NCBI GenBank assembly: GCA_016124495.1
Contig: WGNP01000004.1
Span: 1-64,000 of the forward strand
Direction of reading: 5' to 3'
Length of the DNA: 64,000 nucleotides
Source: Hyphomonas sp.
GTDB taxonomy: Bacteria > Pseudomonadota > Alphaproteobacteria > Caulobacterales > Hyphomonadaceae
The notes beneath the pieces are model-generated. The model ran no database searches, had not been told where the DNA came from, and saw nothing but the letters and a program-made list of their open reading frames with translations. The position numbers and the translations under genes are program-made. How positions within the stretch are numbered: position 1 is the first letter of the stretch; every line of letters starts with the position of its first letter. Below are positions 1,618-49,066 of this stretch, piece by piece.

Positions 1618-4600
1618 CCACGCAGAAATTGCACAGCACCGAATACCCGGAAGTCAGGTTCGCGCCCGGCGTCGCCGCCGCGCCGCTCAGCGGGTCAATT
1701 CGGATCATGCTTGTGACGGGCATTGCGCTGGGGATGGCTGGTCTTTCGTCCTATGCTGATCCGTCTCGCACCCTCAGTGCGCAATACGGGGCCATTGATT
1801 GGCTGAGCGATCAGCTGCGCACTGATCCGGGTGCCGGCCTTACGGGGCGTTATGGCCCTCTGCGAGGCCGGGACACATCTGTTGCGCCTGTATTCCAGGA
1901 AGATGGCGAAGTTCCGCACACAGATCGGTCCGCGGAGGCGAAAGGGCTTGATGCCTGGAGCCGTGAGGACAAGATGGCCGCAACGGAGGCGCCCGCTTGC
2001 GGCGACCGCATAAAGGACTGTCCGCCTTCGGCAGCGAGCATCCGGCCTCAGGACATCGTCTCCCTTTCTGACGCTGCCTTGCATCCTGCCGGCGAGGCAG
2101 CCCCCCCCGAACCCGGATGGACCGGTCCGGGGGAAGCCCGTCTTTCCTCCGAAACAAGCCGTTCCGCCAGCGGATCTGCTGGTATAGCGGCAATGGCAAC
2201 GGCTTCAGGTGGTTACGGCGGCCCCGATCATGAAAGCCTCGCGTCTGTCGATTACAGGCCAGAAGCCGCTGGCGAGGCGGCGTCCGCAGCCGATCTGCCG
2301 GGCGAGCCGGGGGCTGGCCCGGCGCGCGCAGAGACCGGTTATCCTGAAGAAGACAGGCCAGCGCAGGCCCAGGACACCTCATCCCCAGAGTCCAGCTGGT
2401 TTATCGTCGGGCAGGCGGACCTGACAATTGGCAGCAATAATGATACCGGATCGGCGCCAGAATTCTCCGGAGAGGGTCCTGAGGACGCAGGCTATTCAAA
2501 AGGTCGTATCGCATTTTATGCAAAAGGTGAGATGCATAACGGGCTGAAGGTAACGGCTTCGGTGGACACTCGGGAATCCGGTCTGCAGGACGTTTACAGA
2601 AATCTCGACCGCAAAGATCCGTCCCAGCTTCTGCAGCGGTTGCGGACATCCCAGAACTACCCTGTTTATGGGGACGATTCGAGTATTCGCGAGGATGCGC
2701 CGACACAGGGAGATGTTTACATCCGTGTAGAGAATGAAGACAGCCAGCTGGTTATCGGGAACTTTATCGCTCAGGCCACCGGCACGGAGCTGGCCCAGCT
2801 CGACCGGGGCCTGTTTGGCGCCATGGTGAGTCTGAGGACGCCTGAATCGACCGCTTCCGGTGAACGCAAGTCGCAGCTGTTTGCTTTTGCATCAGAGCCT
2901 GGAACAATTCCGGCCCGCGAGGAGTTTCGAGGGACCGGCGGATCGCTCTACATTCTCAAGCGCCAGGATGTTTCTGTAGGATCCGAGCGGGTCCGGATGG
3001 AGGTCCGGGACCGCACAAACGGGATCGTTCTCGAAAGCCAGGAGCTCCAGCCTTTTCTGGATTATGACTTCGATCCGTTCCAGGGGCGGCTTATTCTCCT
3101 GCGGCCGCTGGCGTCCTTCCTGCGCTCAGAAGCGGCGGTGACCGATGCCGGGGGTGTCACCAGCATACCGGTTCTGGTTGTTCGCTATGAGTATACCCCG
3201 TCCGCCACAAGTCTGACTGGGCGCACGGTTGGGGCGCGGGGTACCAGCTGGATAGGAGACCACCTCCGTCTGGGGGCTACGGTCCAGGATGAAACGACGG
3301 GGAATGCAGACCAGTTCCTGGTTGGGGCCGACATCCTGCTGAGCGCCGCGCCTGGAACCTATCTCAAAGCAGAGACTGCCCGCTCCGACGGAGCTGGATT
3401 TGGAGAGTCTGCCTCGGTCGATGGAGGGTTGTCGTTCTTTGATTTTGCTTCCCCCGGGCAGGGGCAGCAGTCTCATGCCTGGCGGTCAGAGATTGCGGTT
3501 GACCTGTCGGAGATCGGCCGCAAAGGGGATAATGCCGGAACGCTTTCAGCCTATTTTGAAGCCCTGCAGGCGGGCTTCTCCTCGGCCGGTCGTCTGACGG
3601 CCTCTGACACGACGCGCTGGGGCGGCCACCTGGAGATGCCTTTAGGGCGAGGCAGCGAGGTTATACTTGGTGTCGATGCGCTGGAGACGCCTGCGACCGG
3701 AGCAAACCGAACAGCCAGCCTTGATCTGGAAAGCCGCATGGATCTCAACCGCGCCAGCCTGACGGCGCGCGGCGGCCTGAGCCTTGATCACCGCACGCCC
3801 GGTCTTCTGTTCAACAGCGTCCAGCAGGGCGCGCGCCTCGATGCCGGGGCAACGCTGACATACAGCCCTGAGCAGGCGGGCTGGTCCGGGCGCCTGTTTG
3901 GCCAGACGACGCTTGACCGGGATAAAGGGCGCGTCAGGAACAACCGGGCCGGCGCGGGTGTTCAGGCGGCGCTTTCCAGGCACCTCTCGCTTGAGAGTGA
4001 GTTTTCCGGCGGGGATGGCGGCTGGGGTATGGACGTGAAGCTCAACCGGCGCATCGAAGATGGGGCTGACACCTATATCGGTTACTCGGTGTTTGCAGAT
4101 CAGGCGGAAACCGGACTTGATCCGGTCAGTCTTCTCGGCCAGCCGAACAGGGCAAGCCTGATTGCCGGGTCACGCCACCGTGTATCAGACCAGATGTCTG
4201 TCTTTGGTGAGAACCGCTTTGCGATTGGCGGGCAGGCGCCTGCGATAGCCCGGGTTTATGGCTTGACCTTTGATCCTGCTGAGTATGTCAGTGTGACGGC
4301 GTCTCTGGAACAAGGCCGGATAGACGATGCCCAGGCGGGTCTGATGCGCCGCACGGCGGCGAGCATGGGTATTGGTTTTTCAGGGCAGGATTACCGGGTC
4401 ACAAGCGCCGTCGAGATGCGTCAGGAGACGGGCGAGCGAGGCGAGCAGGAAGTCTGGCTGCTACGAAATTCAGCCTCTTTCAGCCTCGGTCAGGACTGGC
4501 GTTACCTCAGTGATCTGAACATCGCGTGGGCCGATGCGGACGGTCAGTCAATCCGCGCCGCGGAGTTTACCGAGGCAAGTATCGGAGCCGCTTATCGGCC

Positions 4601-5084
4601 GGCAGAACAACAGCGTTTGAATGGCCTGGCGCGGCTGCACTATTTTGAGGATATGGGGCCGCTGGGCCAGCTTACGGGCTCGGGCAGGACTGAAAGCCCT
4701 AAACAGGTGAGCATGATCTTCAGCGCAGATGGCAATTACAGCCTGACGCAGAGGCTGACCCTCGGCGCAAAGTATGGTTACAGGCAGGGAAAGGTGTCGC
4801 TCGCCAGGAGCTCTGCGGATTTCGTCAGCTCCGAGGCCCATCTCGGCGTCATCCGTGCCGATTACAATGCGATTGGAGCGTGGGATATTCTTGCGGAAGC
4901 GCGCTCTCTCTCGGTGTCCGGCGCGCATGAACGAAAGCTCGGAGCGCTTCTGGCCGTCTATCGTCATCTCGGCGAGAACGTGAAGCTGGGCGCTGGCTAT
5001 TCCTGGTCGGATTTTTCCGACAACCTGACAGACCAGACTTATACGAGCCGGGGAACATTCCTGAACCTGGTGGCGGCGTTCTGA
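1614..5084 (+). CDS. Large outer-membrane beta-barrel protein coupled to DUF11 surface proteins
   Basis: A 1156-residue protein. The N-terminus has a long leader with a hydrophobic stretch at about residues 29-47 (IMLVTGIALGMAGL). A low-complexity linker rich in Ala, Gly, Glu, Ser and Pro runs to about residue 255. A central domain follows (LVIGNFIAQATGTELAQLDRGLFG; then GTGGSLYILKRQDV, RVRMEVRDRTNGIVL and LDYDFDPFQGRLILLRPL). This is the module I associate with outer-membrane partners of DUF11-repeat proteins in Proteobacteria. The C-terminal part, about 600 residues, alternates polar and aromatic residues and ends in Phe (LVAAF), as outer-membrane barrels do. The start overlaps the upstream stop by 4 bases. 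It may anchor or export its neighbours; that is inference. Confidence 0.82.
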   Translation: MTTQKLHSTEYPEVRFAPGVAAAPLSGSIRIMLVTGIALGMAGLSSYADPSRTLSAQYGAIDWLSDQLRTDPGAGLTGRYGPLRGRDTSVAPVFQEDGEVPHTDRSAEAKGLDAWSREDKMAATEAPACGDRIKDCPPSAASIRPQDIVSLSDAALHPAGEAAPPEPGWTGPGEARLSSETSRSASGSAGIAAMATASGGYGGPDHESLASVDYRPEAAGEAASAADLPGEPGAGPARAETGYPEEDRPAQAQDTSSPESSWFIVGQADLTIGSNNDTGSAPEFSGEGPEDAGYSKGRIAFYAKGEMHNGLKVTASVDTRESGLQDVYRNLDRKDPSQLLQRLRTSQNYPVYGDDSSIREDAPTQGDVYIRVENEDSQLVIGNFIAQATGTELAQLDRGLFGAMVSLRTPESTASGERKSQLFAFASEPGTIPAREEFRGTGGSLYILKRQDVSVGSERVRMEVRDRTNGIVLESQELQPFLDYDFDPFQGRLILLRPLASFLRSEAAVTDAGGVTSIPVLVVRYEYTPSATSLTGRTVGARGTSWIGDHLRLGATVQDETTGNADQFLVGADILLSAAPGTYLKAETARSDGAGFGESASVDGGLSFFDFASPGQGQQSHAWRSEIAVDLSEIGRKGDNAGTLSAYFEALQAGFSSAGRLTASDTTRWGGHLEMPLGRGSEVILGVDALETPATGANRTASLDLESRMDLNRASLTARGGLSLDHRTPGLLFNSVQQGARLDAGATLTYSPEQAGWSGRLFGQTTLDRDKGRVRNNRAGAGVQAALSRHLSLESEFSGGDGGWGMDVKLNRRIEDGADTYIGYSVFADQAETGLDPVSLLGQPNRASLIAGSRHRVSDQMSVFGENRFAIGGQAPAIARVYGLTFDPAEYVSVTASLEQGRIDDAQAGLMRRTAASMGIGFSGQDYRVTSAVEMRQETGERGEQEVWLLRNSASFSLGQDWRYLSDLNIAWADADGQSIRAAEFTEASIGAAYRPAEQQRLNGLARLHYFEDMGPLGQLTGSGRTESPKQVSMIFSADGNYSLTQRLTLGAKYGYRQGKVSLARSSADFVSSEAHLGVIRADYNAIGAWDILAEARSLSVSGAHERKLGALLAVYRHLGENVKLGAGYSWSDFSDNLTDQTYTSRGTFLNLVAAF

Positions 5085-5248
5085 GGGACGGGGCGGGGGG
5101 CGGCCGCAACGCGCTCTTTCTGACAGCGCCGGCGGGGTGCTGGCTCTCAGCATGCAGGGACTGCGTTTTCCAGGTGTTGCGGGCGCAGCACCCGGGTTGG
5201 AGGGGCCTACTAGTCCGCTGTTAACCTGCGCCTGAGATAGACGCAGCA

Positions 5249-8200
5249 GTGAAGCTTGCAATGAGGCTCATGAAGATGGCGCCGTTCAAATCCGTCCTGG
5301 TGCTGGGGCTTGCGGTTCTCAGCGCGTTGCCTGCGCTGGCGGCAATTGATGTGAACAACAGTTTCACCCCGTCCACGCGTTATCCGGGTGAACCGGCCCG
5401 CCTGATCATCCGTCTGCAGAACTCCTCTCTTTCCCCCAGCCAGAACGTCGCCCTTGAGAATACTCTGCCGGCCGGCATCTATCTTGCCCCCGATGCAAAC
5501 ATAGCCAACAATTGCGGCGGCACCCTGACTGCATCAAATAATGCGGAACGGGGAAGCGTATCGATCGTTTCGGCTCAGATACCTGCCGGAGACGGGTCCA
5601 GTACCGGATCCTGCCAGATCGAACTGAATGTCATCGGCCAGAAGAGGGGCACCTATGTCAACACGATTGCCGCCGGGGCCCTGACCGCCATTACAAATGG
5701 TGTGCCTGAAGCCAATGCGATGGCCAGCTCGGCGACGCTCGCAATCATTGCGCAGGATGTCCAGATCAGCTGGGCAACAACCTACGCCGGAGGCGTACGG
5801 ACGGGCGCTGCGGTCGCGCTTCAGGGAAACGAGACCTTCTCCAGGCATATCGTCATTTCCAACCCGAATCCTGTTACCCTGACCGGGGCCACGTTTGTCT
5901 ATGATCTTTGGACGGACAGCCATAACATCAGAATCCGTGAGGATCTGCCGATGGGCTCGACCTGCGGGGGAACTCTCGCCATCGCAGCCCGGCCGTCAAG
6001 GACGGGGTTTGGCCCGACATCCCAGCTGACCTTCGCGGGAGGCAGCCTTCCGGCGCAATCAAGCTGCGAGGTATTCTTTACGGTTGAGCCCAGCCGCGAG
6101 GCCACGCTGCCTTTCAACCAGACGACCCTGACGCACAGCCTGCCGGCGGCTGCGATCTCAACCGATCAGGGCGCGACCAATACCTCCGCAGCAGCGAACA
6201 GTGTGGGCACGCACACCGGGATCCGGGTGATCAAACAGTTTAACGGTGCCTCGACAGCGACCGTAAACATCAACACGACCTCCTCGGCGCAGCTGCGCCT
6301 GACCTTCGAGAACCTTAATGTCCTGTCTGTCCCCGGCATAGACTTTACAGACTTCATGCCAACGGGCCTGACAGTTGTTTCCGCAGATTCGAATACCTGC
6401 GGGGCGGCGGTGAGTTTTGCGCCCGCCAGTCAGCTGACCCTGTCGGGAGCGACGCTGCCGGGCGCAGCTGCGAACTTGACGGGTCAGCAGACGGGCAGCT
6501 GCCAGGTCACGGTGACCGTGACTGCGGCGGCCGAGGGAGCCTACCTCAACCAGATACCGGCCGGAACGCTCGGGGGAACACATCAGTTTGCGGCGGCGTC
6601 TGCCACACTTAACGTGACCAATCCTCCGCCTCCCGTCCCGCCCCCGGCATTTAACACATCGATGGTTCTTTCGAGGTCCGGAACGCTCTACTCAGGCGAC
6701 ACGCTGAATGCGAGCTTCACACTTACAAACGCCCCCGCAGGCGCACCCGTCACAAATGTCCGCATCCCGGCAAACCTGACCACCCTGGGTTATGGATTTC
6801 GGGTCGGCCCGTCCGGCTTGATCAGTAACACCTGCGGCGGGAGCATTACAGCCCTGCCCGATGCAACCAGTCTCCAGGCGGCCGGCCTGGCGGTCAATCC
6901 AGGCCAGTCCTGCAACTTTGTCGTTCAGCTGATCACGGCGGCCGATGCTGTTCTGACATCCGGAACATCAGAAAACAGAACACTGACGATTGCCGCCGGT
7001 GCCATTTTCCATGACACCCCGGACACTCAGAACATACCTAACAGTCTTGCCGTCACCGCTTCGATCGGCCTGCAGCCTGCGGTCTCCCTGTCGATGAGCT
7101 TCAGCCCGGCCGTTGTCGGCCCGCTCGGCATCAGCCGTCTTCGCATCAACATCCAGAGACGTTCCAGTGACCTTGTGGGAATGCGCGATATCTCTGTCAT
7201 CAGTACCCTGCCGGCCGGCCATGTTGTCGCCCCCAGCCCGGATGTCCTGAACGGTTGCGGGGGGAGCGTATCGGCCGCCCCCGGGAGTAGTTCGGTTGCG
7301 TTGAGCGGGGCCAGCATGACGCTGGGGGCGAGCGCGACTTTGACGTGCAGCCTCGAAGTCAATATCCGGGCCGCCGGCCTTGTTCCTCCTGCGACCACGG
7401 CGACCGCGGCGGCCTCCATTGCCGCCGATCCGCGGCCTGGAGCCCGGGTCAACTTCATTGCAACGGACAACAGGCAGCCCGCCGGATTAGACGAGGTCCG
7501 CAACCTGCGCCAGGCCAGTGCGAACCTCACCCGTCTGGCAAGCGATGTGACCGTCAGCAAGGCCTTCAGCCCCACCTTTATAAACGGGGGCGGGGTGTCC
7601 CGTGTCCGGATCACGCTTTCGAACCTTGCATCGACGGCGCTGAACCTCACGGGTTTGTCCATCACTGATGCCTTCAGTGACACCGACATGCGCCTGTACG
7701 CCGATGTCAACCCTACCTTCACGGATCTCGCCGGCAACCCGAATGCCAATGGCTGCTCGGGAGGGACATTCAGCGGCGCTTCGGGTGATGCACAAATCAC
7801 ACTGGCCGGGGCCGCTATCCTTGCTGGTCGCTCATGCCTCTTCGAGTTTAACATAACGGCCTTTGGCGGAGGCAATAAGATAAACCGGATTCCGCCTGGT
7901 GCGCTTGCGACGCTGGAGGGGATCAGCAACCCTTCCGAAGTTTCGGCGACGCTGACGGTTGGCTACCAGATCGGCGCGGGAACAGGGTTTGCGCCCTCTG
8001 TGATGGAAGCGGGAGGCCAGTCGACCCTTTCTCTCGAGATCTACAACACCAATCTCGTCCCCAATGATCAGACGGGTGCGTCCCCGGCGATTGTGGACAT
8101 CATGCCTCCCGGTCTGCAGATCGTGCCGGCAACGGCCACAACCGACTGCGCCGGCGGCGTCGTGAGTTACGGCGTTGACGGCAGCGGGAACCATTTCCTC

Positions 8201-9793
8201 CGCCTCGACGGAGGGGTTTTCCCGGCTTCGGGCGTCTGCCGGGTTCAGGCGCAGGTGACCGGCAGTGCAACAGGTGTTTACCTGAATGAGATCCCGGCGG
8301 GCGCGCTGCGGGCGCTTTCGGGGCTTACGAGTATCAACGCCGCTCAGGCGCAGCTTCGAATCATCCAGCCTCCGGTCATTACGAAAGCATTCGGCCCGGC
8401 CTCTATACCGCTGGGCGGCACGTCTGTGATCACGTTTACCCTTCAGAACCCCAACCCGGCGGGAGTTCTGCCCGCAGGCATGACCGGGATAGCATTCACC
8501 GATACACTGGAGGGTATGCAGGTTGCAGCCCCCCTGTCGATTGGAGGGACATGCGCAGGCGTCGTCACGAATGCGCAGATCGGGGCGACGGCTTTCAGCA
8601 TCTCCAACATTTCCCTGGCTGCGGGGGCGCAATGCACGGTGACGCTTCCCGTCACGTCATCAACGCCCGGGCTTCTCCTGAACCAGGCGAGTGGGGCGAC
8701 CTCCGGTCAGACGTCTCAGCCTGGTCCCGCCTCGAACATTGCCGAGCTGCGCGTTCTGGAGCCGGTAACGCTGGCAAAATCTTTTGCCGTAGCAGAGATC
8801 TTTTCAGGACAGACCGCGCGGCTTGTCTTTGAGCTGATCAATCCCAATCCCGTTCCGGCTTCGATTTCCAATCCCGGCTTCACGGACACATTCCCCACCA
8901 GTCCGGGCGTCATGGCCGTCGCGCCCGTTCCGAATCTCTCTTCGACCTGTACAGGCGCAGCCATCCGTAACCTCGGAGACTCTGCAAATCTCGCGGCGGG
9001 CAATCTTGGCGTCCTGGTGCGGGGCGGAACGGTGCCGGCAAGTGCAGGATGTCAGATCAGCTTCGACATCACGGCGCAGCAGCCGGGGATTTATCTCAAT
9101 ACGACTTCTGAGATCAAAAGTGCCGGCGGATCCGCTCCGGCTAGCGCTGCCGAACTGCTGGTTTTGTCTGTTTCCGCAACGGATGACACCGCGACAGGCA
9201 TCAATGGCCTGCCTGGCGCTCAAAGCGTGCTGAATGTCTTTAACGGCGACGTCCTCAATAATGCACCTGCAACCCCTGTAACCACCCTGCTTTCCCTGGC
9301 AGCCGGTTCGACGGTTCCGGCAGAGCTGACTTTTGATCTGGCCACCGGAGCGGTCGGAGTTGTCCCTGGGGCCCGGCAGGCAACTTATTCTTTCAGATAC
9401 AGGATCTGCGACAGGACTATTGCGCTGAACTGTGCCGAAGCAAATGCAAGCGTGTCGGTCGCGCCTTCTGCAGATCTGTCGATTACCAAGACCAATACAC
9501 CCGGTATCAACAGCAATGCTGATCCTGCCGATGACGGGGTCATTTCGGGTACAGTGACGAACTATACGATTATCGTGCGTAATAACGGCCCGGATTCTGC
9601 TACCGGCGCGGTCGTGAAGGATACGGTTGTGTCGGGACTCATCTGTCCTGCAACCAATCCTGTAAGCCTCTCCGGCGCCGGGGTTCCCGGCGGCAGTTTC
9701 ACCTTTGCGGATCTGTCGGGCGCTGGCATCACACTGGGCACGCTTTCCGCGGGTCAGGCGACCACTCTGTCTTTTTCCTGCAGCGTGAACTGA
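5249..9793 (+). CDS. Giant secreted repeat protein with many DUF11/DUF7933-type domains
   Basis: A 1514-residue protein. The GTG start is 5249, with alternative ATGs at 5261, 5270 and 5276. A clear signal peptide (VLVLGLAVLSALPALA) ends near residue 32. At least nine tandem beta-sandwich units of roughly 110-150 residues follow. Each opens like NSFTPSTRYPGEPARL or KAFGPASIPLGGTSV, contains a paired-cysteine segment such as NNCGGTL or STCTGA, and ends with YLNxIPAG. The repeated cysteines suggest one disulfide per unit. A linker (about 1325-1415) resembles the start of the partial gene at base 1, and a final DUF11 domain (ADLSITKTN) closes the protein. No anchor or LPXTG-like signal is visible. 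The family is known for extracellular structural roles; adhesion or surface-layer function is inferred. Confidence 0.85.
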   Translation: MKLAMRLMKMAPFKSVLVLGLAVLSALPALAAIDVNNSFTPSTRYPGEPARLIIRLQNSSLSPSQNVALENTLPAGIYLAPDANIANNCGGTLTASNNAERGSVSIVSAQIPAGDGSSTGSCQIELNVIGQKRGTYVNTIAAGALTAITNGVPEANAMASSATLAIIAQDVQISWATTYAGGVRTGAAVALQGNETFSRHIVISNPNPVTLTGATFVYDLWTDSHNIRIREDLPMGSTCGGTLAIAARPSRTGFGPTSQLTFAGGSLPAQSSCEVFFTVEPSREATLPFNQTTLTHSLPAAAISTDQGATNTSAAANSVGTHTGIRVIKQFNGASTATVNINTTSSAQLRLTFENLNVLSVPGIDFTDFMPTGLTVVSADSNTCGAAVSFAPASQLTLSGATLPGAAANLTGQQTGSCQVTVTVTAAAEGAYLNQIPAGTLGGTHQFAAASATLNVTNPPPPVPPPAFNTSMVLSRSGTLYSGDTLNASFTLTNAPAGAPVTNVRIPANLTTLGYGFRVGPSGLISNTCGGSITALPDATSLQAAGLAVNPGQSCNFVVQLITAADAVLTSGTSENRTLTIAAGAIFHDTPDTQNIPNSLAVTASIGLQPAVSLSMSFSPAVVGPLGISRLRINIQRRSSDLVGMRDISVISTLPAGHVVAPSPDVLNGCGGSVSAAPGSSSVALSGASMTLGASATLTCSLEVNIRAAGLVPPATTATAAASIAADPRPGARVNFIATDNRQPAGLDEVRNLRQASANLTRLASDVTVSKAFSPTFINGGGVSRVRITLSNLASTALNLTGLSITDAFSDTDMRLYADVNPTFTDLAGNPNANGCSGGTFSGASGDAQITLAGAAILAGRSCLFEFNITAFGGGNKINRIPPGALATLEGISNPSEVSATLTVGYQIGAGTGFAPSVMEAGGQSTLSLEIYNTNLVPNDQTGASPAIVDIMPPGLQIVPATATTDCAGGVVSYGVDGSGNHFLRLDGGVFPASGVCRVQAQVTGSATGVYLNEIPAGALRALSGLTSINAAQAQLRIIQPPVITKAFGPASIPLGGTSVITFTLQNPNPAGVLPAGMTGIAFTDTLEGMQVAAPLSIGGTCAGVVTNAQIGATAFSISNISLAAGAQCTVTLPVTSSTPGLLLNQASGATSGQTSQPGPASNIAELRVLEPVTLAKSFAVAEIFSGQTARLVFELINPNPVPASISNPGFTDTFPTSPGVMAVAPVPNLSSTCTGAAIRNLGDSANLAAGNLGVLVRGGTVPASAGCQISFDITAQQPGIYLNTTSEIKSAGGSAPASAAELLVLSVSATDDTATGINGLPGAQSVLNVFNGDVLNNAPATPVTTLLSLAAGSTVPAELTFDLATGAVGVVPGARQATYSFRYRICDRTIALNCAEANASVSVAPSADLSITKTNTPGINSNADPADDGVISGTVTNYTIIVRNNGPDSATGAVVKDTVVSGLICPATNPVSLSGAGVPGGSFTFADLSGAGITLGTLSAGQATTLSFSCSVN

Positions 9794-41577: not shown

Positions 41578-41654
41578 GATCCCGTAGCTCAGCAGGATAG
41601 AGCGACAGATTCCTAATCTGTAGGTCGTGCGTTCGAATCGCATCGGGATCACCA
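41578..41654 (+). tRNA. tRNA-Arg (anticodon CCT)
   Basis: 77 bases including an encoded CCA. Acceptor stem GATCCCG / CGGGATC, D arm GCTC...GAGC, anticodon stem ACAGA / TCTGT with loop TTCCTAA (anticodon CCT), T arm GTGCG TTCGAAT CGCAT. All stems pair. It reads AGG codons. tRNA-Arg genes are frequent integration sites, and the unusual lipid-type cluster begins 6 bases downstream. Confidence 0.96.
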
Positions 41655-41660
41655 TTTTCC

Positions 41661-42746
41661 TCATCTTGAGGGCGCGAGTGTGCCGCATCGAATGTCGTAG
41701 ATGATCGACTTGTCGGAGACGCTCAGGCCGGCGCTGCGGGAAAGGTCTATTCCGATGTGCGGGGTGAGCGCCGGGCCCGGCTGCACCGGGTTCATGAATA
41801 CGCGCTCGCAGTAGCGCGCACCCGGGCCGGCGGCGGCAAGGATACCGCGCCAGCACGCGTCATAGTCCGCCTGGCTGCAATAGGAGCCGAAATCCGACAG
41901 GGAGAACGCATCGAACGGGCCAAAACCCGACGCCCCAAGGGTGGCGAGACCTTCCTCGGCGATATGGATACGGTCCAGCCGTTCGCGGATCATATCGAAC
42001 TTCTCCGGTCGCATGTGCAGGGGAAGGGCGGATTCGGGCGTGTGGCGCCCCTTCAGCAGCAGCGCAGCAAAATCCGACTCGCGGAAGAAGATGTTCTCCG
42101 AAGCGCGGCGGAAAAGACCGGTCAGGCGCGCGGCGCTTTCTGCCGGTGAGGGCAGGAAGGCACCGCCCGGCTCACCCACGATCCGGGTCCAGAACCAGCG
42201 TTGGGACAGGAGGCGCACCGCCCCGTGCCAGACCGCATCATCAAACCGGGTGCGCCAGATGCCTGCCTGTTCGGATAGTGTGGGTGCTCCAAGCAGGGTA
42301 TCAATCGACCGTCCGCGGATGAGACGAGTACCAATGGCGCCTAGGCGCAGCACCCGCTCCCATCGCCCGGAGTTCCACACGCCGGAGGCGAGGACGCCGC
42401 GGCGTGCGCTCCAGAAGCTGCGCGAAGCCGGTGGCAGGAAGCTCTCGACCTTCCGGTGAAGGTCCAGCCGGTGGCGTGTCGCCGCGATACCAAGATAGGC
42501 ATGCAGCGCTTCGTCCCCAAGCGCCTGATACGCCGCTATCTTGAGGCGGAGAAGTTCGTTCTGAGCGGGATTGATGTCGATCGACGTGATTCGGGCGGGT
42601 CCGCCCAGCAACAAGTCAAGCGGGCGCGCGCCGCTCGCTGTCAGGCAAAGGACCTGGTCCGTCGGTTTCAGGGTGAGAGCGGCAAGCTCAGTCGCGCCGT
42701 CTTCATTGGCCGAAGTGAAATTCAGTGTACGCGCGAAATTGGACAT
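41661..42746 (-). CDS. BtaA-like (DUF3419) aminocarboxypropyl transferase
   Basis: 361 residues, last gene of the six-gene set. The SAM-binding region is LCLTASGARPLDLLLGGPARITSIDINPAQNELLRLK, the DUF3419/BtaA pattern. IFFRESDFAALL and FGPFDAFSLSDFGSYCSQADYD also fit. BtaA moves the 3-amino-3-carboxypropyl group of SAM onto diacylglycerol, the first step to betaine lipid DGTS. No BtaB methyltransferase is adjacent, and the neighbours suggest a different acceptor. It starts 6 bases after the preceding gene's stop. Confidence 0.8.
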   Translation of the reverse strand: MSNFARTLNFTSANEDGATELAALTLKPTDQVLCLTASGARPLDLLLGGPARITSIDINPAQNELLRLKIAAYQALGDEALHAYLGIAATRHRLDLHRKVESFLPPASRSFWSARRGVLASGVWNSGRWERVLRLGAIGTRLIRGRSIDTLLGAPTLSEQAGIWRTRFDDAVWHGAVRLLSQRWFWTRIVGEPGGAFLPSPAESAARLTGLFRRASENIFFRESDFAALLLKGRHTPESALPLHMRPEKFDMIRERLDRIHIAEEGLATLGASGFGPFDAFSLSDFGSYCSQADYDACWRGILAAAGPGARYCERVFMNPVQPGPALTPHIGIDLSRSAGLSVSDKSIIYDIRCGTLAPSR

Positions 42747-42752
42747 GGGGGC

Positions 42753-43604
42753 TCAGACCATCAATCCGACACGCGGCCGGGGAACCTGCGGACAGCGCCC
42801 GGCAAGGATGGCTTCAATGCCTGGGCGCAGGAGATCCTGCGGCGTGAAGATGAGAGGCGCAGGGCCGTGCACGGCACGGTTTTCGCCGATCAGTTCAAGA
42901 ATCGCCCGGTCTTCGGCCAGTATACGCCGGAAAAAGAGACGTAATGCAGCGAGCTTCAAATGCGCATCGATCCCGTCGCCCGGGACGGCAATCGTTGCGG
43001 CGACATAGGTCTCATTGCTGGTAACAGGTGAAAGACGGAAACGTGCTGCAAAAACAGGGCGACTACCGTCCGTATAAGATACGTCCGCGGTAGCCGGCGC
43101 GCGGAAGGTGTCCCGTATGGTGTATCGGTGAGCGCCGAGCAGTCGAGCGCCCCAACCGCTTGGCGCCGCGCCGGGGGGGTAGGTGGCAGAGATCCACCCC
43201 GCTCCCGCTTCGAGAATGGCTTCGACCGGGCGGCGTGATCCGGGGCGTCGCAGGTAGCCCTGGTGCACGACACTGGTATGGGTCGTGTCGAGAATGTTCT
43301 CCCCGACATCACCGAGCCCCGCCCGGACGCGCCCCTCGATCAGGATTTTCCGGAAGGGCGTCGCGATCAAGAGCGGACTCGCGCATGTCTCCGTGAGCGG
43401 ATCACCCCCGGCCGCAAGTATCCAGTCCTCTGCCTCAAGCACACGATGCGCTGCTCCTGAGGCAACCGCCACAGCGGCGATGCGGCCACCCTCGCGCCAG
43501 ATACGAAGCGATGTGCCCGCCAGAACACGGTCGACCGGCGGGCCGCGCAGATCGCGGGCTCTGAGCAAGGGGTACCACCCGGGAAGCAGGCTGTCCGATG
43601 TCAT
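42753..43604 (-). CDS. Rieske-oxygenase-like protein lacking the Rieske cluster
   Basis: 283 residues, shorter than usual Rieske oxygenase alpha subunits. The start GWYPLLRARDL and LRIWREGGRIAAV correspond to the N-terminal Rieske domain, but the CxH...CxxH ligands and about 40-50 surrounding residues are gone. The only cysteines are Cys74 and Cys271. The catalytic domain keeps GENILDTTHTSVVHQG (Asp106, His109, His114) and a late acidic site (Glu231/Asp232), the expected mononuclear-iron ligands. It overlaps the next upstream gene by 4 bases (ATGA). Reaction unknown; electron delivery would need another route. Confidence 0.72.
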   Translation of the reverse strand: MTSDSLLPGWYPLLRARDLRGPPVDRVLAGTSLRIWREGGRIAAVAVASGAAHRVLEAEDWILAAGGDPLTETCASPLLIATPFRKILIEGRVRAGLGDVGENILDTTHTSVVHQGYLRRPGSRRPVEAILEAGAGWISATYPPGAAPSGWGARLLGAHRYTIRDTFRAPATADVSYTDGSRPVFAARFRLSPVTSNETYVAATIAVPGDGIDAHLKLAALRLFFRRILAEDRAILELIGENRAVHGPAPLIFTPQDLLRPGIEAILAGRCPQVPRPRVGLMV

Positions 43605-44866
43605 GCGCCGGCGCCGTTTCCGCGGATCACCCGGCGCAGCTTACCGCCTTGCGGCGCCGGAAGGGGCGCTGTGGCAGCAAGGATTTCCGGGCTGGCGCCA
43701 AGTCGCAGGAAGAGCGCCGCGAGGGCATCTCTCGCGGGCACAAGCTCATTGTCGAGCCCCGGTGGCAGGGTCAACGACACGCGCGCGGTCGCTACCTGGG
43801 CCGCGCGAAAGTCGGTGATGTTCCGGCTCGCGCCTACGACCGCGTTGCGGATGACATCCGGTGTGACAAGGATGAGTTGTCCCTCTGCGCCCGCAAGCCG
43901 GAAGGTATCATCGCAGCGGCCGGCGACTTCTGAAACGGCTTGCAGCGGCGAGCCGCAGGCGCACGCCTTTGCAGACAGGCGCAGGAGATCATTCATCCGG
44001 TAGCGGATCATCATCTGCGTCCGGCGTGTGAAGTCGGTGATGACCGGCGTCACCAGCTCTCCTTCCGGCTCCCATTCGAAGGCGACGCAGTCTTCGCACA
44101 GATGCAAGGTGCCTTGAGAACAGGCGACGCCGAGCAGGCCTTCGGTCGCCATGTAGATCTCTCGCACCGTGACCGCGAAACGTGCCTCAATCTCCCGCCG
44201 GTCAACGGGATCGAGCACTTCGGCGCCGGAGAAAATCTGACGCGGCGCCAGTGGAAGATCCGACCGGGCGAGGGCAACGAGCGCATGCGGCGGCGCCACA
44301 ATTACGCTCGGACGAAAAGCTGAAACCGCCGCAAGCTGGTTTTCAAGACCCTCCGTCAGATCGAAGAACTTCAGCACCAGACGGCCGGATTCGTTGGCCG
44401 CGTCATACAGCCGGCTGCCGCGCGGCAGCATCACGGCTACCCGGTATCTGGCGGACAACATGTCGGGAAGTGCCTTGGCGAGAAGGGTGCCGAGCCAGAG
44501 ATATCGCTCCGGATCGCTGACCAGATAGAGGCCGCGATTGCCGCTCGTCCCGGTGCTCGCGCCAACGCTGAACTTCCCGATGCTGCCGTTCTGATCGTAA
44601 GCGCTCCAGGCGCTGTCAGCGGAGATGCCGTTAATGTTGTAGAGATGAAAGGCGCCCATCAGTGCGGCCTTGTCCATCAACGGAAAGTCCGCAAGCGGAT
44701 GGCCGGAGAGGTGGGAGAAGGCGGCCGCGCGCGGCGCGGTGCGCGCCAGGAAGCGCGCAAGGCGCTGCGACTGCCAGCGCAGCAGGTCGCTTCGAGTGCG
44801 CAGGCGCGCCGCCCGGGCGCGGCTGCGCCAGAAGGCCGATAGCGTCAGCATAAGCGCCGCGCTCAT
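43601..44866 (-). CDS. CoF_synth/F390-synthetase-related adenylate-forming enzyme
   Basis: 421 residues from ATG 44866, which overlaps the MBL gene's stop by 4 bases; the frame is open further to 44890. The nucleotide-binding loop is VGASTGTSGNRGLYL. REIYMATEGLLGVACSQG, LCEDCVAFEWEP and the terminal cysteine pair KACACGSPL follow, with IRYRMNDLLRL and the hinge in CDDTFRLAG. This is the PaaK/CoF_synth group (TIGR02304-like), which activates carboxylates as acyl-AMP. No carrier protein is encoded nearby; the acyl substrate is unknown. Confidence 0.83.
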   Translation of the reverse strand: MSAALMLTLSAFWRSRARAARLRTRSDLLRWQSQRLARFLARTAPRAAAFSHLSGHPLADFPLMDKAALMGAFHLYNINGISADSAWSAYDQNGSIGKFSVGASTGTSGNRGLYLVSDPERYLWLGTLLAKALPDMLSARYRVAVMLPRGSRLYDAANESGRLVLKFFDLTEGLENQLAAVSAFRPSVIVAPPHALVALARSDLPLAPRQIFSGAEVLDPVDRREIEARFAVTVREIYMATEGLLGVACSQGTLHLCEDCVAFEWEPEGELVTPVITDFTRRTQMMIRYRMNDLLRLSAKACACGSPLQAVSEVAGRCDDTFRLAGAEGQLILVTPDVIRNAVVGASRNITDFRAAQVATARVSLTLPPGLDNELVPARDALAALFLRLGASPEILAATAPLPAPQGGKLRRVIRGNGAGA

Positions 44867-45642
44867 GTGACGGGTTCCGGATCGTGGCAAAGGACTATTC
44901 GGCCGCCCGACGTCGCAAAGACGTTCAGGCGCGCAGCCGTCTCCCGCGCAGCAACCGGGTTGTCAAGAATCCAGCGTGCGGGTGCTCCGGGTGAGCGCGC
45001 CTCGTATATTGCCTGTGCCAGCCAGTCGGCGTCTCCCGCGTAGAGTATGGCCGGTGTCTGCCGTGCGAACAGGTAACCGGTATGCCCGCGCATGTGACCG
45101 GGCAGGGGCACAGCCAGCACTTCTCCGTCCCCGAACACATCGCGGGCCGGCCCGAGGCCGAAAGGCGCCGCAACGGATGGAAGTGAGTCAAGCGGCGTCA
45201 GCCGCGCGCGCAGGTCATCCGGCAGCAGCTCCCGGAAAACGCCGTGGCGTGTCCGCCCGAACGGACCGGCTCTGAGAAAGTGATCGAGCGCGCCCGCGTC
45301 GCCGATCAGGCGCGCTTGCGGATAGTCCTTGAGCGCAGAGACATGATCTGCATGCAGATGGGTCAGAAGGATCGTCTGCACGTGAGGAGACCCGCCTGGC
45401 AGCGCTGCAGCCGTCAGCTTCGGGCGCAGGATCCCCGCATAGAGTGCAAGGGGCAGGGAGCGCGCGCCGCGGGTAACCCGCGCGCAGTATCCTGTGTCGA
45501 TGAGGCAGGCGCCTGCGCGCGTGTGATCAAAGCGGCCATAGCGAACAGCAAGATCAATACGCGTCCAGCGCCCGCCACTCAGCACCAGTCGTTCCGGCAC
45601 GCGCACCGCGGCGCTGTTTGGGAAGGAAAGTCCGGTGATCAT
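44863..45642 (-). CDS. MBL-fold hydrolase of the lipid-type cluster
   Basis: 259 residues. The full metal motif THLHADH (His95, His97, Asp99, His100) is followed by PLPGHMRGHTGYLF and YAGDADW, and CLIDTGYC precedes it. The set fits two-zinc quorum-quenching or thioesterase-like MBL hydrolases. The ATG at 45642 overlaps the SDR stop by 4 bases. A role in releasing an acyl product, by thioester or lactone hydrolysis, is inferred from context. Confidence 0.85.
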   Translation of the reverse strand: MITGLSFPNSAAVRVPERLVLSGGRWTRIDLAVRYGRFDHTRAGACLIDTGYCARVTRGARSLPLALYAGILRPKLTAAALPGGSPHVQTILLTHLHADHVSALKDYPQARLIGDAGALDHFLRAGPFGRTRHGVFRELLPDDLRARLTPLDSLPSVAAPFGLGPARDVFGDGEVLAVPLPGHMRGHTGYLFARQTPAILYAGDADWLAQAIYEARSPGAPARWILDNPVAARETAARLNVFATSGGRIVLCHDPEPVT

Positions 45643-46607
45643 GGGCGGCGTCCGAATGTGAGGGCGAGACCCTCCTCAAAGCCGATCCTTGGCGCCCATC
45701 CGAGCTGCTGGCGCGCCGCTGCCAGATCAAGGGTTTGTGTGAATGCAAATAGCCCGGCGCCATAGGCGGTTATGCGCGGCTCGGGCCGCTCCGGATGAAG
45801 ATACGCTGCGGCCTCCAGTGCGCGCGCAGCTGCCAAAACGATGCCGGTCGGCATCGGTCGCCAGCGGACAGTCAGTCCGGCGTGCAGCGCTGCAGAATCT
45901 GCAATCTGGCGCACGGGTAGCGGCTCGCCGCCAGATATATTGAAAATGCACTGTCTCATTCCGGCTGGCGCCGACAACGCCGCGAGGACGGCGCTCACGA
46001 CATCGTCGACATGCGTCAGGTCTGTTTCTGCCCGGCCACCCCGGATTAGCGGCAGCGGTCCTGCCTGAGCCGCGCGTAACAGGCGCGGCAACAAGGCTGT
46101 ATCGCCTGCGCCGTAAATTCCCCGCGGCCTGAGGATCACCGGATCAAGGCCTGTTTCTGCGCGGACAATTCGCTCGGCCTCGCCCTTGGTCGCGGCATAG
46201 GCGTTGACTGGCGTCGGCAATGGCACGTCCTCTTTGACGCCCGGTTGGTCCTGGAATCGAAAATAAAGGCTGGGCGTGGAGATGTGGACGAAGCGTTTCG
46301 CGCCCGCCGCCCTGGCAAACCTGAGGGCAGAGAATGTCCCTCCCACATTCGAGGCATGAAATGCGGCGCGGGGCCCCCAGGCTGAAGACAGCGCTGCGCA
46401 ATGGACCACCGCGCTGAGCTCTCCCGCTTCGCGCGGCGGACCGCCAGCCAGATCATTCCGCACCGTGCGCGCGCCGAGCGCTTCAAGCGCCGCAAGCTTA
46501 CCCTGGTCACGCCCCAGCGCCACAACCGGCTGGCCTTGCGCCAGCAGGCGGCGGCAAATCGCGCCGCCGAGAAACCCGGTCGCACCCGTGATGGCTATGG
46601 CGGCCAC
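45639..46607 (-). CDS. NAD(P)-dependent extended SDR (epimerase/3-beta-HSD/OleD-like)
   Basis: 322 residues. Rossmann motif ITGATGFLGG at the N-terminus, VVHCAALSSAWGP, HISTPSLYF, and the catalytic YAATK (Tyr137, Lys141). The C-terminal part has LRPRGIYGAGD, LTHVDDVVSAVL and FNISGGEPLPV. Extended SDRs of this shape reduce 3-oxo-acyl or 3-oxo-acid groups in Ole-type pathways and act on sterols. Next to a condensing enzyme, reduction of a beta-keto product is the natural guess. Confidence 0.88.
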   Translation of the reverse strand: MAAIAITGATGFLGGAICRRLLAQGQPVVALGRDQGKLAALEALGARTVRNDLAGGPPREAGELSAVVHCAALSSAWGPRAAFHASNVGGTFSALRFARAAGAKRFVHISTPSLYFRFQDQPGVKEDVPLPTPVNAYAATKGEAERIVRAETGLDPVILRPRGIYGAGDTALLPRLLRAAQAGPLPLIRGGRAETDLTHVDDVVSAVLAALSAPAGMRQCIFNISGGEPLPVRQIADSAALHAGLTVRWRPMPTGIVLAAARALEAAAYLHPERPEPRITAYGAGLFAFTQTLDLAAARQQLGWAPRIGFEEGLALTFGRRP

Positions 46608-46611
46608 GGGT

Positions 46612-47658
46612 TCATGTCTCCAGGATTGCCCCGGCGAGCGAAACGCCGGCCGAGGTTCCGATCAGGAGCACGCGCATGCCCGCACGGATCAGGCCTTCGT
46701 TGCGCGCCAGGCACAGCGCCACGGGGATCGACGCAGCCACCTGGTTGCCTATCGTCCGTACCCGGTCGAATACGCGATCAGGTTCAAAGCCGCCGCGCCG
46801 GATGATATGCGCCAGGGCATGCGGGCTTGCCTGATGGGGCACCACAAGGTCAATGTCCGTGCGTCTCAGGCCGGAGGTCTCGAGAAGGCGGTCGAGGAAG
46901 CCCGGCAGGGCAGCGGCGGTGATCCGGTAGAGCGCCTTGCCGTCCATGCGGAAATAGGCGCTGCGCGAGAATGCTTCAGGATCGGCGTGAAAGTCGATGC
47001 CTGTCCCGCCGGCGGCCAGCGTGCAAGCGTCATAGCCATCGGCGAAGGTTTCCATATGGAAGCCGCCGAAGCGTGCGCCGCCCAGCCTTCCGGCGCCTGC
47101 GGCGCTCACCACAAAGGCCGCCGCGCCGTCGCCGAACAGGCCGGCGGCCTCCGGCGCGTCGTGCCAGGGCAGCGCGCGGGAAGCGATTTCCGCCGTCACG
47201 ACCAGAACCTGCCGCGCGCGGCCCGCCGCGATGTGCAGGCCCGCGACATCGAGCGCTACCAGCGCGCTGAGGCAGGTGGCATTGACGTCATAGGCCGGAA
47301 AGTTGAAGGCAGCGCCGCCGAGTTCACGTTTCACCAGGGGTGCTGTCGCCGGGATTGGCTGTCGCCCGACCGAAGCGCCGAAGAGCAGGAGGTCCACGTC
47401 GGCCAGCTTGAGGCCGGCCTCGGCGAGCGCCGCGCGGGCCGCGGCTGCACCGAGCCGCTCCTGGGTTTCGCCCGGGTTGGCGACTGGCCGTGTGGCCACG
47501 CCGCAGACGCCTTCAAGCCAACCGGCTGCCTTGCCAAGCCGGCGATCGATCTCCGACGAATCCAGTGACGCTTCCGGCAACGCCATGCCGATGCCCGAAA
47601 TCGACGGGCTGGTCGAAGGCAGGACCGCAGGGCGCAGGCGCTCAATGTGAGTGAACAT
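46612..47658 (-). CDS. KAS III-like condensing enzyme (thiolase superfamily)
   Basis: 348 residues, first gene of the set. Nucleophile Cys129 in YDVNATCLSAL, His275 in VPHQASPHAL and Asn305 in TIGNQVAASIP form the KAS III triad; GLFGDGAAAFVVS is also typical. The start is ATG 47658, since SISGIGMALPEA is the first strand. No ribosome site precedes the ATG, and a good promoter places the transcript start at the ATG itself. It probably condenses an acyl-CoA or acyl-ACP. Whether it is FabH-like or OleA-like cannot be told here. Confidence 0.9.
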   Translation of the reverse strand: MFTHIERLRPAVLPSTSPSISGIGMALPEASLDSSEIDRRLGKAAGWLEGVCGVATRPVANPGETQERLGAAAARAALAEAGLKLADVDLLLFGASVGRQPIPATAPLVKRELGGAAFNFPAYDVNATCLSALVALDVAGLHIAAGRARQVLVVTAEIASRALPWHDAPEAAGLFGDGAAAFVVSAAGAGRLGGARFGGFHMETFADGYDACTLAAGGTGIDFHADPEAFSRSAYFRMDGKALYRITAAALPGFLDRLLETSGLRRTDIDLVVPHQASPHALAHIIRRGGFEPDRVFDRVRTIGNQVAASIPVALCLARNEGLIRAGMRVLLIGTSAGVSLAGAILET

Positions 47659-47664
47659 TTACGT

Positions 47665-47693
47665 AGTATAATACGCTTTGTAGTCGCTGACAA
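47665..47693 (-). promoter_or_regulatory. Promoter of the KAS III gene set, likely leaderless
   Basis: On the minus strand -35 TTGTCA (47688-47693) and -10 TATACT (47665-47670) are separated by exactly 17 bases. Six bases follow before the ATG at 47658, so the first transcribed base would be at or next to the A of the ATG. No Shine-Dalgarno sequence is present, which agrees with a leaderless mRNA. Confidence 0.65.
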
Positions 47694-47758: not shown

Positions 47759-48989
47759 TCAGGTCAACGAAAGGCGTAGCTCGCGCAAACTCACGAAGCC
47801 GATGGTTGGCTGGCCGCGTGCCGCGGGTGCGGCGATCGGTGTCCGCGGGTGGAGCGACGGCAGCGTGCGAAGCGTGGCCTCGATCTCGAGACGGGTGAGC
47901 GGCGCGCCGAGTCAGGCATGTATGCCCCCGCCGAACAAGACGTGATCGCGCCGGCCGCCCCGAATCCGGAAGGCATGCAGGTCCTCAAACGCCGCCGGAT
48001 CGCGGTTAGCCGCGAGCAGCGACAGCACGACCGCCGCGCGGCGCTTTACCGGGCAACCCAGTATCTCCGGGTCCGCGGCAACATAGCGTGCTGCAATCGC
48101 GACCGGCGGTCCGTCGCGCCGATTTTTTTCCGTACCCGGAACAGCAAGGTCCGGGTCTGCCACCAGCGCCGCCCATCCCTACGGATGGCAGAGCAGGGTA
48201 AGCAGGCCATTGCAGAGCACATCCGCCGAGGTGAGATTGCCGGCCAGCAGGCTCAGCAGCACGAACGTCGAGATTTCGGCATCGGCGAGTGTCGATTCCG
48301 TCTCGCTTTCGGCGTGTACGATCGCCGACAACAGGTCTTCGCCGGGCCTCGCCCGCCGCTGCGCAACGGCATCAGCGAAATACGTATCCAGGCCCGCAAA
48401 CGCAGCCAGCTGTCGCCGGTCCTCGCCTGGCGAGCGCAGCGGATTGAACACGGAGATCAGGTCGCGCGACCATTGCCGCAATTGCGGCACGACGGCGCGC
48501 GGAAGGCCCAGCATGTTGCCGGTCACTTAGATGGGGATAGGCGCAGCATACTCGGAGACGAAATCGAAGTCCGGCTTCTGCGCCGCCTCCGCAAGCCGGC
48601 GCGCCGCAATCGCTTTGATCTCCGCGCGAACGCCTGTGAGACGCGGCTGCGCACGCGCTGGTGCGGCGTGCAGCCGCGATAGAGCAGGTTGCCGTGCGGC
48701 CCGTCCTGCATCACGGCGGCGGGCGCAAAGGCGCGGGCGAGGGAGCCGGGCGGCATGGCGCGCGGATCGGGCCGGTAGCTGGCGTCCGCGAAGATCGCGC
48801 GCAGTCCTCGATCTGCATGAGATACGGCCCTGTGGGCGCTTCCAGGAAAGGCGCATGCGTATGAATGTGGCGCGGCGCGTCCTGCCGCAGCCGGTCCGGC
48901 ATCGGATGCGGATCACGCAGGAATTCGGGATTGAGCCCGGTCACTTCATACCCGTCGGGCCAGGGCTGGAGTTCTGCATCGCTCCTCAA
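47759..48989 (-). pseudogene. Decayed cytochrome P450 gene
   Basis: Reads from TTG 48989 (LNPEFLRDPHPMPDRL) through AIFADASYRPDPRAM and LLYRGCTPHQRVRSRVSQAF to the I helix LLAGNLTSADVLCNGLL, K helix ExxR, AANRDPAAF, HVLFGGGIHA, then LGAPLTRLEIEATLRTLPSL and a stop at 47759. It is broken by frameshifts near 48805 and 48630 and by in-frame stops TAA 48527-48529, TAG 48179-48181 and TGA 47912-47914. The TGA sits where the heme-ligand cysteine (TGC) belongs. It lies upstream of, and in the same direction as, the lipid-type cluster, which it may once have served. Confidence 0.85.
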
Positions 48990-49066
48990 TCCTCGCGCCT
49001 AAAGTCCCTTAAATACAAGCAGAGATTGTATTTTGGATTCGGGGCCGTTCCCAACCGGCCTGCCGC

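Follow-up and report, generated by a model that had tools for sequence, protein, structure and literature searches.

A six-gene set in Hyphomonas as a proposed version of a modular cassette for acyl products

Enzymes of the BtaA family make diacylglyceryl homoserine, and DUF3419 proteins of this kind are expected to move a 3-amino-3-carboxypropyl group from S-adenosylmethionine (SAM). The OleABCD enzymes condense, reduce and activate acyl chains in outline and, according to one report, OleA, OleC and OleD convert acyl-coenzyme A (CoA) to beta-lactones (PMC7064751). Another report presents NdmC (N7-demethylation of 7-methylxanthine, Pseudomonas putida CBB5) as a non-heme iron oxygenase that is active without a Rieske cluster of its own and works with NdmD and NdmE, using the extra cluster of the reductase NdmD (PMC4408171). 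Here we compare with these systems a set of six genes at positions 41661-47658 of a 64,000-nucleotide stretch of Hyphomonas sp. DNA (the window: positions 1 to 64,000 of contig WGNP01000004.1, assembly GCA_016124495.1, one of 25 contigs in a 3.27-Mb genome). The set has an OleD-like reductase and a DUF3419 enzyme but differs from Ole in the type of its condensing enzyme, ligase and hydrolase and in its added tailoring genes, from BtaA/BtaB in the missing BtaB partner, a separate BtaA group and other neighbours, and from NdmC in that neither NdmD nor NdmE is encoded in it. The set is real and recurrent, and we think it most aptly regarded as a variant of a modular cassette for acyl products that is apparently unnamed. 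Loci identified by the ligase family TIGR02304 in E. coli and in Mesorhizobium/Rhizobium carry the same four-gene core, with tailoring genes that differ from those of the window.

All six genes are contiguous on the minus strand and run, from upstream, in the order beta-ketoacyl-acyl carrier protein (ACP) synthase III (KAS III)-like condensing enzyme, extended short-chain dehydrogenase/reductase (SDR), metallo-beta-lactamase (MBL)-fold hydrolase, adenylate-forming ligase, oxygenase and DUF3419 protein; their five junctions are a gap of 4 bases, three overlaps of 4 bases and a gap of 6. This layout is as the original prediction had it, and its family calls agree with Pfam and NCBIfam. The condensing enzyme P0001 (46612..47658) matches ACP_syn_III and ACP_syn_III_C, and its Cys129-His275-Asn305 triad is invariant in 101/101 aligned loci. 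P0002 (45639..46607, GTG start) is an Epimerase-family, OleD-like SDR whose Tyr137 and Lys141 are unchanged in 99/99 aligned loci. P0003 (44863..45642, Lactamase_B) has a complete two-metal site (H95, H97, D99, H100, H183, D204, H253; invariant in all 105 aligned loci), and its best NCBIfam models are N-acyl-homoserine lactone (AHL) lactonases, far under cutoff. The ligase P0004 (43601..44866) passes TIGR02304, ‘F390 synthetase-related’, at 283.2 bits against a curated cutoff of 251.9; it is related to phenylacetate-CoA ligases (PaaK-like) and matched no Pfam family at 0.01. Its STGTSG-, YxxTEG-, RYxxxD- and GRxDD-type motifs, which we take to be those of the ANL superfamily, are conserved together with K417 in 16 sequences, and the motifs are at least 95% conserved among 108 aligned loci. 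Its ATG at 44866 is kept among relatives, although the mechanical list of open reading frames begins at TTG 44890. The two tailoring genes are P0005 (42753..43604), a VanA_C-only protein that is related to the alpha-subunits of Rieske oxygenases but lacks the block that binds the [2Fe-2S] cluster, and P0006 (41661..42746, PF11899), a BtaA-like predicted SAM-dependent aminocarboxypropyl transferase. For all six genes the ratio of mean non-synonymous to mean synonymous divergence (dN/dS) is about 0.12-0.21, rough values given that dS exceeds 1.

What stays together beyond the genus is a core of four genes - KAS III, OleD-like SDR, MBL and TIGR02304 ligase - found complete in 105 of 112 ligase-chosen loci; in 93 of those 105 the four genes run collinearly on a single strand. 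The 112 loci comprise the plasmid records that were opened (7 of the 68 matched), 80 loci from a genome contig scan (at least 570 ligase-like stretches, of which the best 80 were kept), genomes from a phylum-wide draw (strong ligase match in 10/398, the window's own included; nine used), the genome G367, 14 genus loci and the window. L163-L172 denote the nine drawn genomes plus G367, two weak ligase matches (L041, L042) are excluded, and duplicates account for three or four of the 112 (L073 = L030, L075 = L034, L076 = L038 and probably L172 = L143). Six of the seven loci with an incomplete core run into the end of their contig (L082, L083, L124, L126, L131, L147), and in the seventh, L025, no KAS III match was found within the stretch. 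Judged by sequence, the four enzymes stay together across phyla, from Bacillota to E. coli to Alphaproteobacteria, while the tailoring genes change; a chance run of genes is ruled out by this co-occurrence and by the keeping of all six genes in seven genomes of the genus (see below). Only one of 385 genomes of the class exceeds the TIGR02304 cutoff, and since G367, just under it at 241.9 bits, does carry the core (L172), some members evidently escape this threshold. In L094 (Sphingomonas) two ligase genes, at 8001-9245 and from 16663 onward, flank a KAS III-SDR-MBL-ATP-grasp-GNAT-Rieske run.

Neighbours recognised by tblastn in the 105 core loci form 12 different sets. Most frequent are GNAT with a Rieske protein and ATP-grasp (47), followed by a glycosyltransferase with a DedA-like protein (12), GNAT with ATP-grasp (11), BtaA with a Rieske-type protein (8, six of them accompanied by a cytochrome P450, whole or as a remnant), ATP-grasp alone (6), PAP2 with fatty-acid hydroxylase and desaturase (4), a sulfotransferase (3), Rieske with ATP-grasp (3), BtaA alone (2), BtaA with GNAT (1) and BtaA with GNAT and Rieske (1). 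ATP-grasp is absent from all 12 BtaA loci. Pfam matches, from one or two examples each, are to EryCIII-like glycosyltransferase, Sulfotransfer_3, ATP-grasp_3, DUF3419 and PAP2 with FA_hydroxylase and FA_desaturase, and a match to Acetyltransf_6 was obtained for the Paenibacillus GNAT only. The rhizobial version (Mesorhizobium/Rhizobium) joins the core to GNAT, Rieske and ATP-grasp. In E. coli the core comes with PAP2, fatty-acid hydroxylase and desaturase (L024 4122-11003, a plasmid record, between narI and purU), and a single place covering at least 80% of this 7.5-kb version was found in 671/5426 E. coli genomes, nine of ten among the matches listed being chromosomes. On a ligase tree of 99 rows, tailoring labels change - by gain or loss - once for glycosyltransferase, once for PAP2, twice for sulfotransferase, five times for BtaA and 12 times for ATP-grasp. 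This tree leaves out L073, L075, L076, L172, L126, L099, L124 and L131 as well as L027, L030, L032, L040 and L085 and, like the DUF3419 tree considered below, is a quick tree with some long branches.

The reading that we favour, if by a modest measure and on family membership and gene neighbourhoods, is that the set represents a version of a modular pathway leading to a small, amphiphilic molecule derived from acyl chains, in which the core would supply a hydroxylated acyl chain and the cap would here be an aminocarboxypropyl group. The ligase would activate a carboxylic acid as acyl-AMP, and the KAS III would condense an acyl chain with either malonyl-ACP or another acyl thioester, supplied by primary metabolism. 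Reduction of the beta-keto group by the SDR would give a hydroxyl, and release of the product from its thioester (or opening of a lactone) would fall to the MBL enzyme. A beta-hydroxy, possibly alpha-branched, acyl compound may result, offering a hydroxyl or carboxyl for capping by a version-specific enzyme: a sugar through the glycosyltransferase, a sulfate, an amino acid through ATP-grasp and GNAT or, in the window, 3-amino-3-carboxypropyl from SAM through P0006. In the window's genus, oxidation steps might be added by the iron protein lacking a Rieske cluster and, in most relatives, by a P450. Since the E. coli version brings a fatty-acid hydroxylase and desaturase, a lipid chain is favoured. 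The original prediction, which had the six genes build an acyl-derived product with a logic like that of OleABCD but with ligase and hydrolase from other families, is supported in this outline. It was also right that the genes belong together; the unit, though, is the four-gene core with exchangeable tailoring genes, among which the oxygenase and BtaA-like genes are lineage-specific.

Several points weigh against this proposal. The order activate, condense, reduce, release, which we infer, and the substrates are drawn purely from family chemistry, none of the loci having an established product, substrate or activity. Because the loci were picked by their ligase, conservation of the core is conditional on it, and in 12 of the 105, mostly from Sphingomonas, Caulobacterales and neighbours, the ligase is separated from the rest of the core. 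Neighbours were counted as matches anywhere in the fetched stretch rather than as operon members, and 7/105 core loci have no recognised tailoring neighbour. The GNAT proteins of Shinella and L137 match no Pfam family, L022 has a divergent sulfotransferase that lies beyond the operon, leaving that type to two Ruegeria loci, and Foldseek matches of P0006 to solved structures are weak only, and to SAM methyltransferases.

How far the likeness to Ole goes can be judged from the core enzymes. The best NCBIfam model for P0002 is OleD (187.5 bits, under the OleD cutoff of 580), which, together with the route from acyl-CoA to beta-lactones cited above (PMC7064751), would speak for an Ole-type olefin or beta-lactone pathway in which the PaaK-like ligase stands in for OleC and the MBL enzyme for OleB. 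The nearest solved sequences to P0001, however, are the ketosynthase 4v2p, the 3-oxoacyl-ACP synthase 3 4ryb and CorB (4yuc), all with E values of 1e-40 or lower and 142-153 bits. The chains 3row and 3s21, which we take to be OleA, reach only about 6e-12 and about 49 bits, far below the FabH-type and CorB chains. The ligase is PaaK-like and matched no Pfam family at the threshold given above, the set is without an OleB-type hydrolase, and an olefin would leave the capping enzymes without an acceptor. Membership in OleABCD thus fails on the KAS III group, the OleD cutoff, the OleC-type AMP-binding ligase and the OleB-type hydrolase, and to our minds an Ole-type route is improbable. The same sequence matches raise another option, namely that the KAS III fuses two beta-ketoacyl chains in the manner of CorB to give an alpha-pyrone or other ring product, which the rest of the set would tailor: 4v2p and CorB, presumably enzymes of pyrone chemistry, are two of the three best solved sequences. 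Yet 3-oxoacyl-ACP synthases score about equally with P0001, and every core contains a reductase, as one would expect if the product were reduced, so that a ring seems to us, if anything, slightly less probable than the Ole-type route.

The cap proposed for the window depends on P0006, and here too an established pathway has to be considered. The assignment of the last gene to the BtaA family holds: P0006 matches PF11899 (DUF3419) at 159.5 bits, well over the cutoff of 28.2, and is the only DUF3419 match in the genome. A phmmer search of P0006 against PDB sequences found no relative. Given the Pfam score and the BtaA product, diacylglyceryl homoserine, P0006 could be an ordinary BtaA that adds homoserine to diacylglycerol for a betaine-type membrane lipid, with the other genes supplying or editing acyl chains, and a membrane lipid was indeed one product that the original prediction had in mind. 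Against this, a BtaB-like methyltransferase lies within the 1.5-kb flanks of 27/28 free-standing BtaA loci of the class (three of these 27 supplied the queries), but in 0/11 cluster BtaA loci (stretches of 9-18 kb), and none was matched in the genome at 1e-8, a search without an in-genome positive control. In the DUF3419 tree a single branch with 98 SH-aLRT splits 12 cluster proteins from 24 free-standing ones, a split that could be affected by two or three long branches (the tree used 24 of the 28 free loci, without L183, L200, L201 and L202, and dropped L073). Moreover, 26 residues are fixed within the cluster group and found in less than 30% of the free-standing proteins. Since the cluster proteins lack BtaB beside them and form a separate group, ordinary betaine-lipid synthesis by them appears unlikely from these comparisons, and of the explanations weighed here the betaine lipid is the one to which we give least credence. 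The BtaA loci stand at five places on the ligase tree, with all five of their label changes forced by starred branches, which combined with the single group of cluster BtaAs makes it seem that one BtaA lineage joined several lineages of the core, or passed from one of these to another. In one core locus, L137, there are two BtaA-like genes (4518-5600 and 7965-9059), 46% and 33% identical to P0006.

P0005 was described in the original prediction as a Rieske-less oxygenase, and so it is: a 44-column block with CPHR...CPYHGW, the CxH...CxxH motif region, is absent as one continuous piece from all seven copies in the genus and present in two rhizobial relatives. Among the 48 oxygenase homologues of the contig set (L169-L171 not included) the Rieske motif is kept in 47, the exception being L073, which is from this genus. 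The oxygenase of L137, a BtaA locus of another group with GNAT, keeps an intact motif, so BtaA does not accompany Rieske loss in general. Twelve residues are invariant in 28/28 aligned sequences (P0005 and 27 of the 48 homologues), among them D106, H109, H114 and D232, which we take to be the mononuclear iron ligands of the Rieske oxygenase family. A phmmer search of P0005 against PDB sequences found no relative. Its AlphaFold2 model (pLDDT, the predicted local distance difference test score, 87) has dicamba monooxygenase 3gb4 as best solved match (Z 25.7 over 262 residues, 2.6 A) and shares its fold with dicamba monooxygenase, SxtT/GxtA and NdmA (Z 25.7 to 21.4), from which it differs by lacking the 44-residue cluster-binding block. 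The model appears to keep N-terminal strands like those in the basal part of a Rieske domain, without the part that would bind the cluster.

Loss of the block raises the question of whether P0005 is a catalytically dead remnant, with the chemistry left to the core and BtaA. The mean dN of its gene, 0.302, exceeds that of each of the other five, and no oxygenase gene was seen in the BtaA loci L088, L112 and L132. On the other hand, the presumed iron ligands are invariant throughout the alignment, dN/dS is about 0.21, and the gene is present in all seven genomes even though the adjoining P450 is broken or absent in two of them. NdmC also offers the precedent of a family member that is active without its own cluster (PMC4408171). 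A dead P0005 is therefore doubtful in our view, if less far-fetched than the other alternatives. An NdmD-like Rieske donor, as in the case of NdmC, is rejected as far as this 93.7% complete genome (G000) shows: judged from their open reading frames, two of its three Rieske matches are complete oxygenase subunits and the third is a bc1 subunit, so that no Rieske-bearing NdmD-like reductase was found.

Within the genus, the whole six-gene set was found by the ligase search in 7 of 37 genomes (G000, G001, G010, G014, G018, G021, G022), and a BtaA profile search of 42 genus genomes returned the BtaA-like gene at E 1e-20 in the same seven only. In eight others the four-gene core is followed by a glycosyltransferase and a convergent VTT-domain (DedA-like) gene. 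Within these searches the complete set is confined to one genus. That the genes might rarely be found together elsewhere, a doubt that the original prediction had itself raised, is not borne out for the core, in loci chosen by their ligase. G010 has a second ligase match, 71% identical to P0004, on a short separate contig (L019 = G010:C78, 3167 bases). A convergent tRNA-Arg(CCT) gene (41578..41654, plus strand, found by ARAGORN) borders the set in the window as a possible insertion site; the tRNA lies near the set in all seven genomes, with another gene intervening in L027. The left flank, tRNA included, is also kept in two genomes with the glycosyltransferase version, and beside it no homologue of the set or of the right flank was found. 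These empty flanks fit insertion beside the tRNA, or loss.

Upstream of the core lies a gene that the prediction, right about the other six, had missed. Five of the six relatives have an intact, co-directional cytochrome P450 of 439-479 residues directly upstream of the core; the search found none in L030, and the window retains a pseudogene (47762..49043, minus strand, by tblastn with the L027 P450) in three frames, 49043-48801, 48804-48625 and 48628-47762, with in-frame stops. Between this remnant and the KAS III gene is the probable promoter of the set (47665..47693, minus strand; TTGTCA, 17 bases, TATACT), whose second hexamer ends 6 bases before the KAS III ATG, a spacing that suggests a leaderless transcript. 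The single promoter that had been predicted is supported by the same arrangement ahead of KAS III in 7/7 genus copies, compared by eye, but not by a consensus scan alone, which gave 2 sites against 1.3 expected from shuffles.

That the set might already be a named cluster, which would have told against the original prediction, found no support: the literature searched held no name for it, a weak result since search terms were strict, subscription papers few and MIBiG not covered. Nor did that literature yield a stated function for TIGR02304 loci, and the accessible parts of four papers mention ‘F390 synthetase’ only in passing (PMC2649909, PMC5467263, PMC9823363, PMC5501837). A bolder form of our proposal, which we hold to be possible yet clearly tentative, sees in these loci a large, unnamed class of acyl metabolites with swappable head groups, of which the window version would be an aminocarboxypropyl lipid with an iron enzyme that has shed its own [2Fe-2S] cluster and, having no NdmD-like partner, takes its electrons from another source or from none. 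If the modular reading is true, one cassette that builds the chain, combined with capping genes that can be exchanged, would account for hundreds of loci, including a version present in about one in eight complete E. coli genomes, and products would become predictable class by class as glycolipid, sulfolipid, aminoacyl lipid or homoserine-type lipid. The function of the ‘F390 synthetase-related’ family would thereby become directly testable, and the Rieske-less iron protein would be a natural test of the oxygenase fold without a built-in electron relay.

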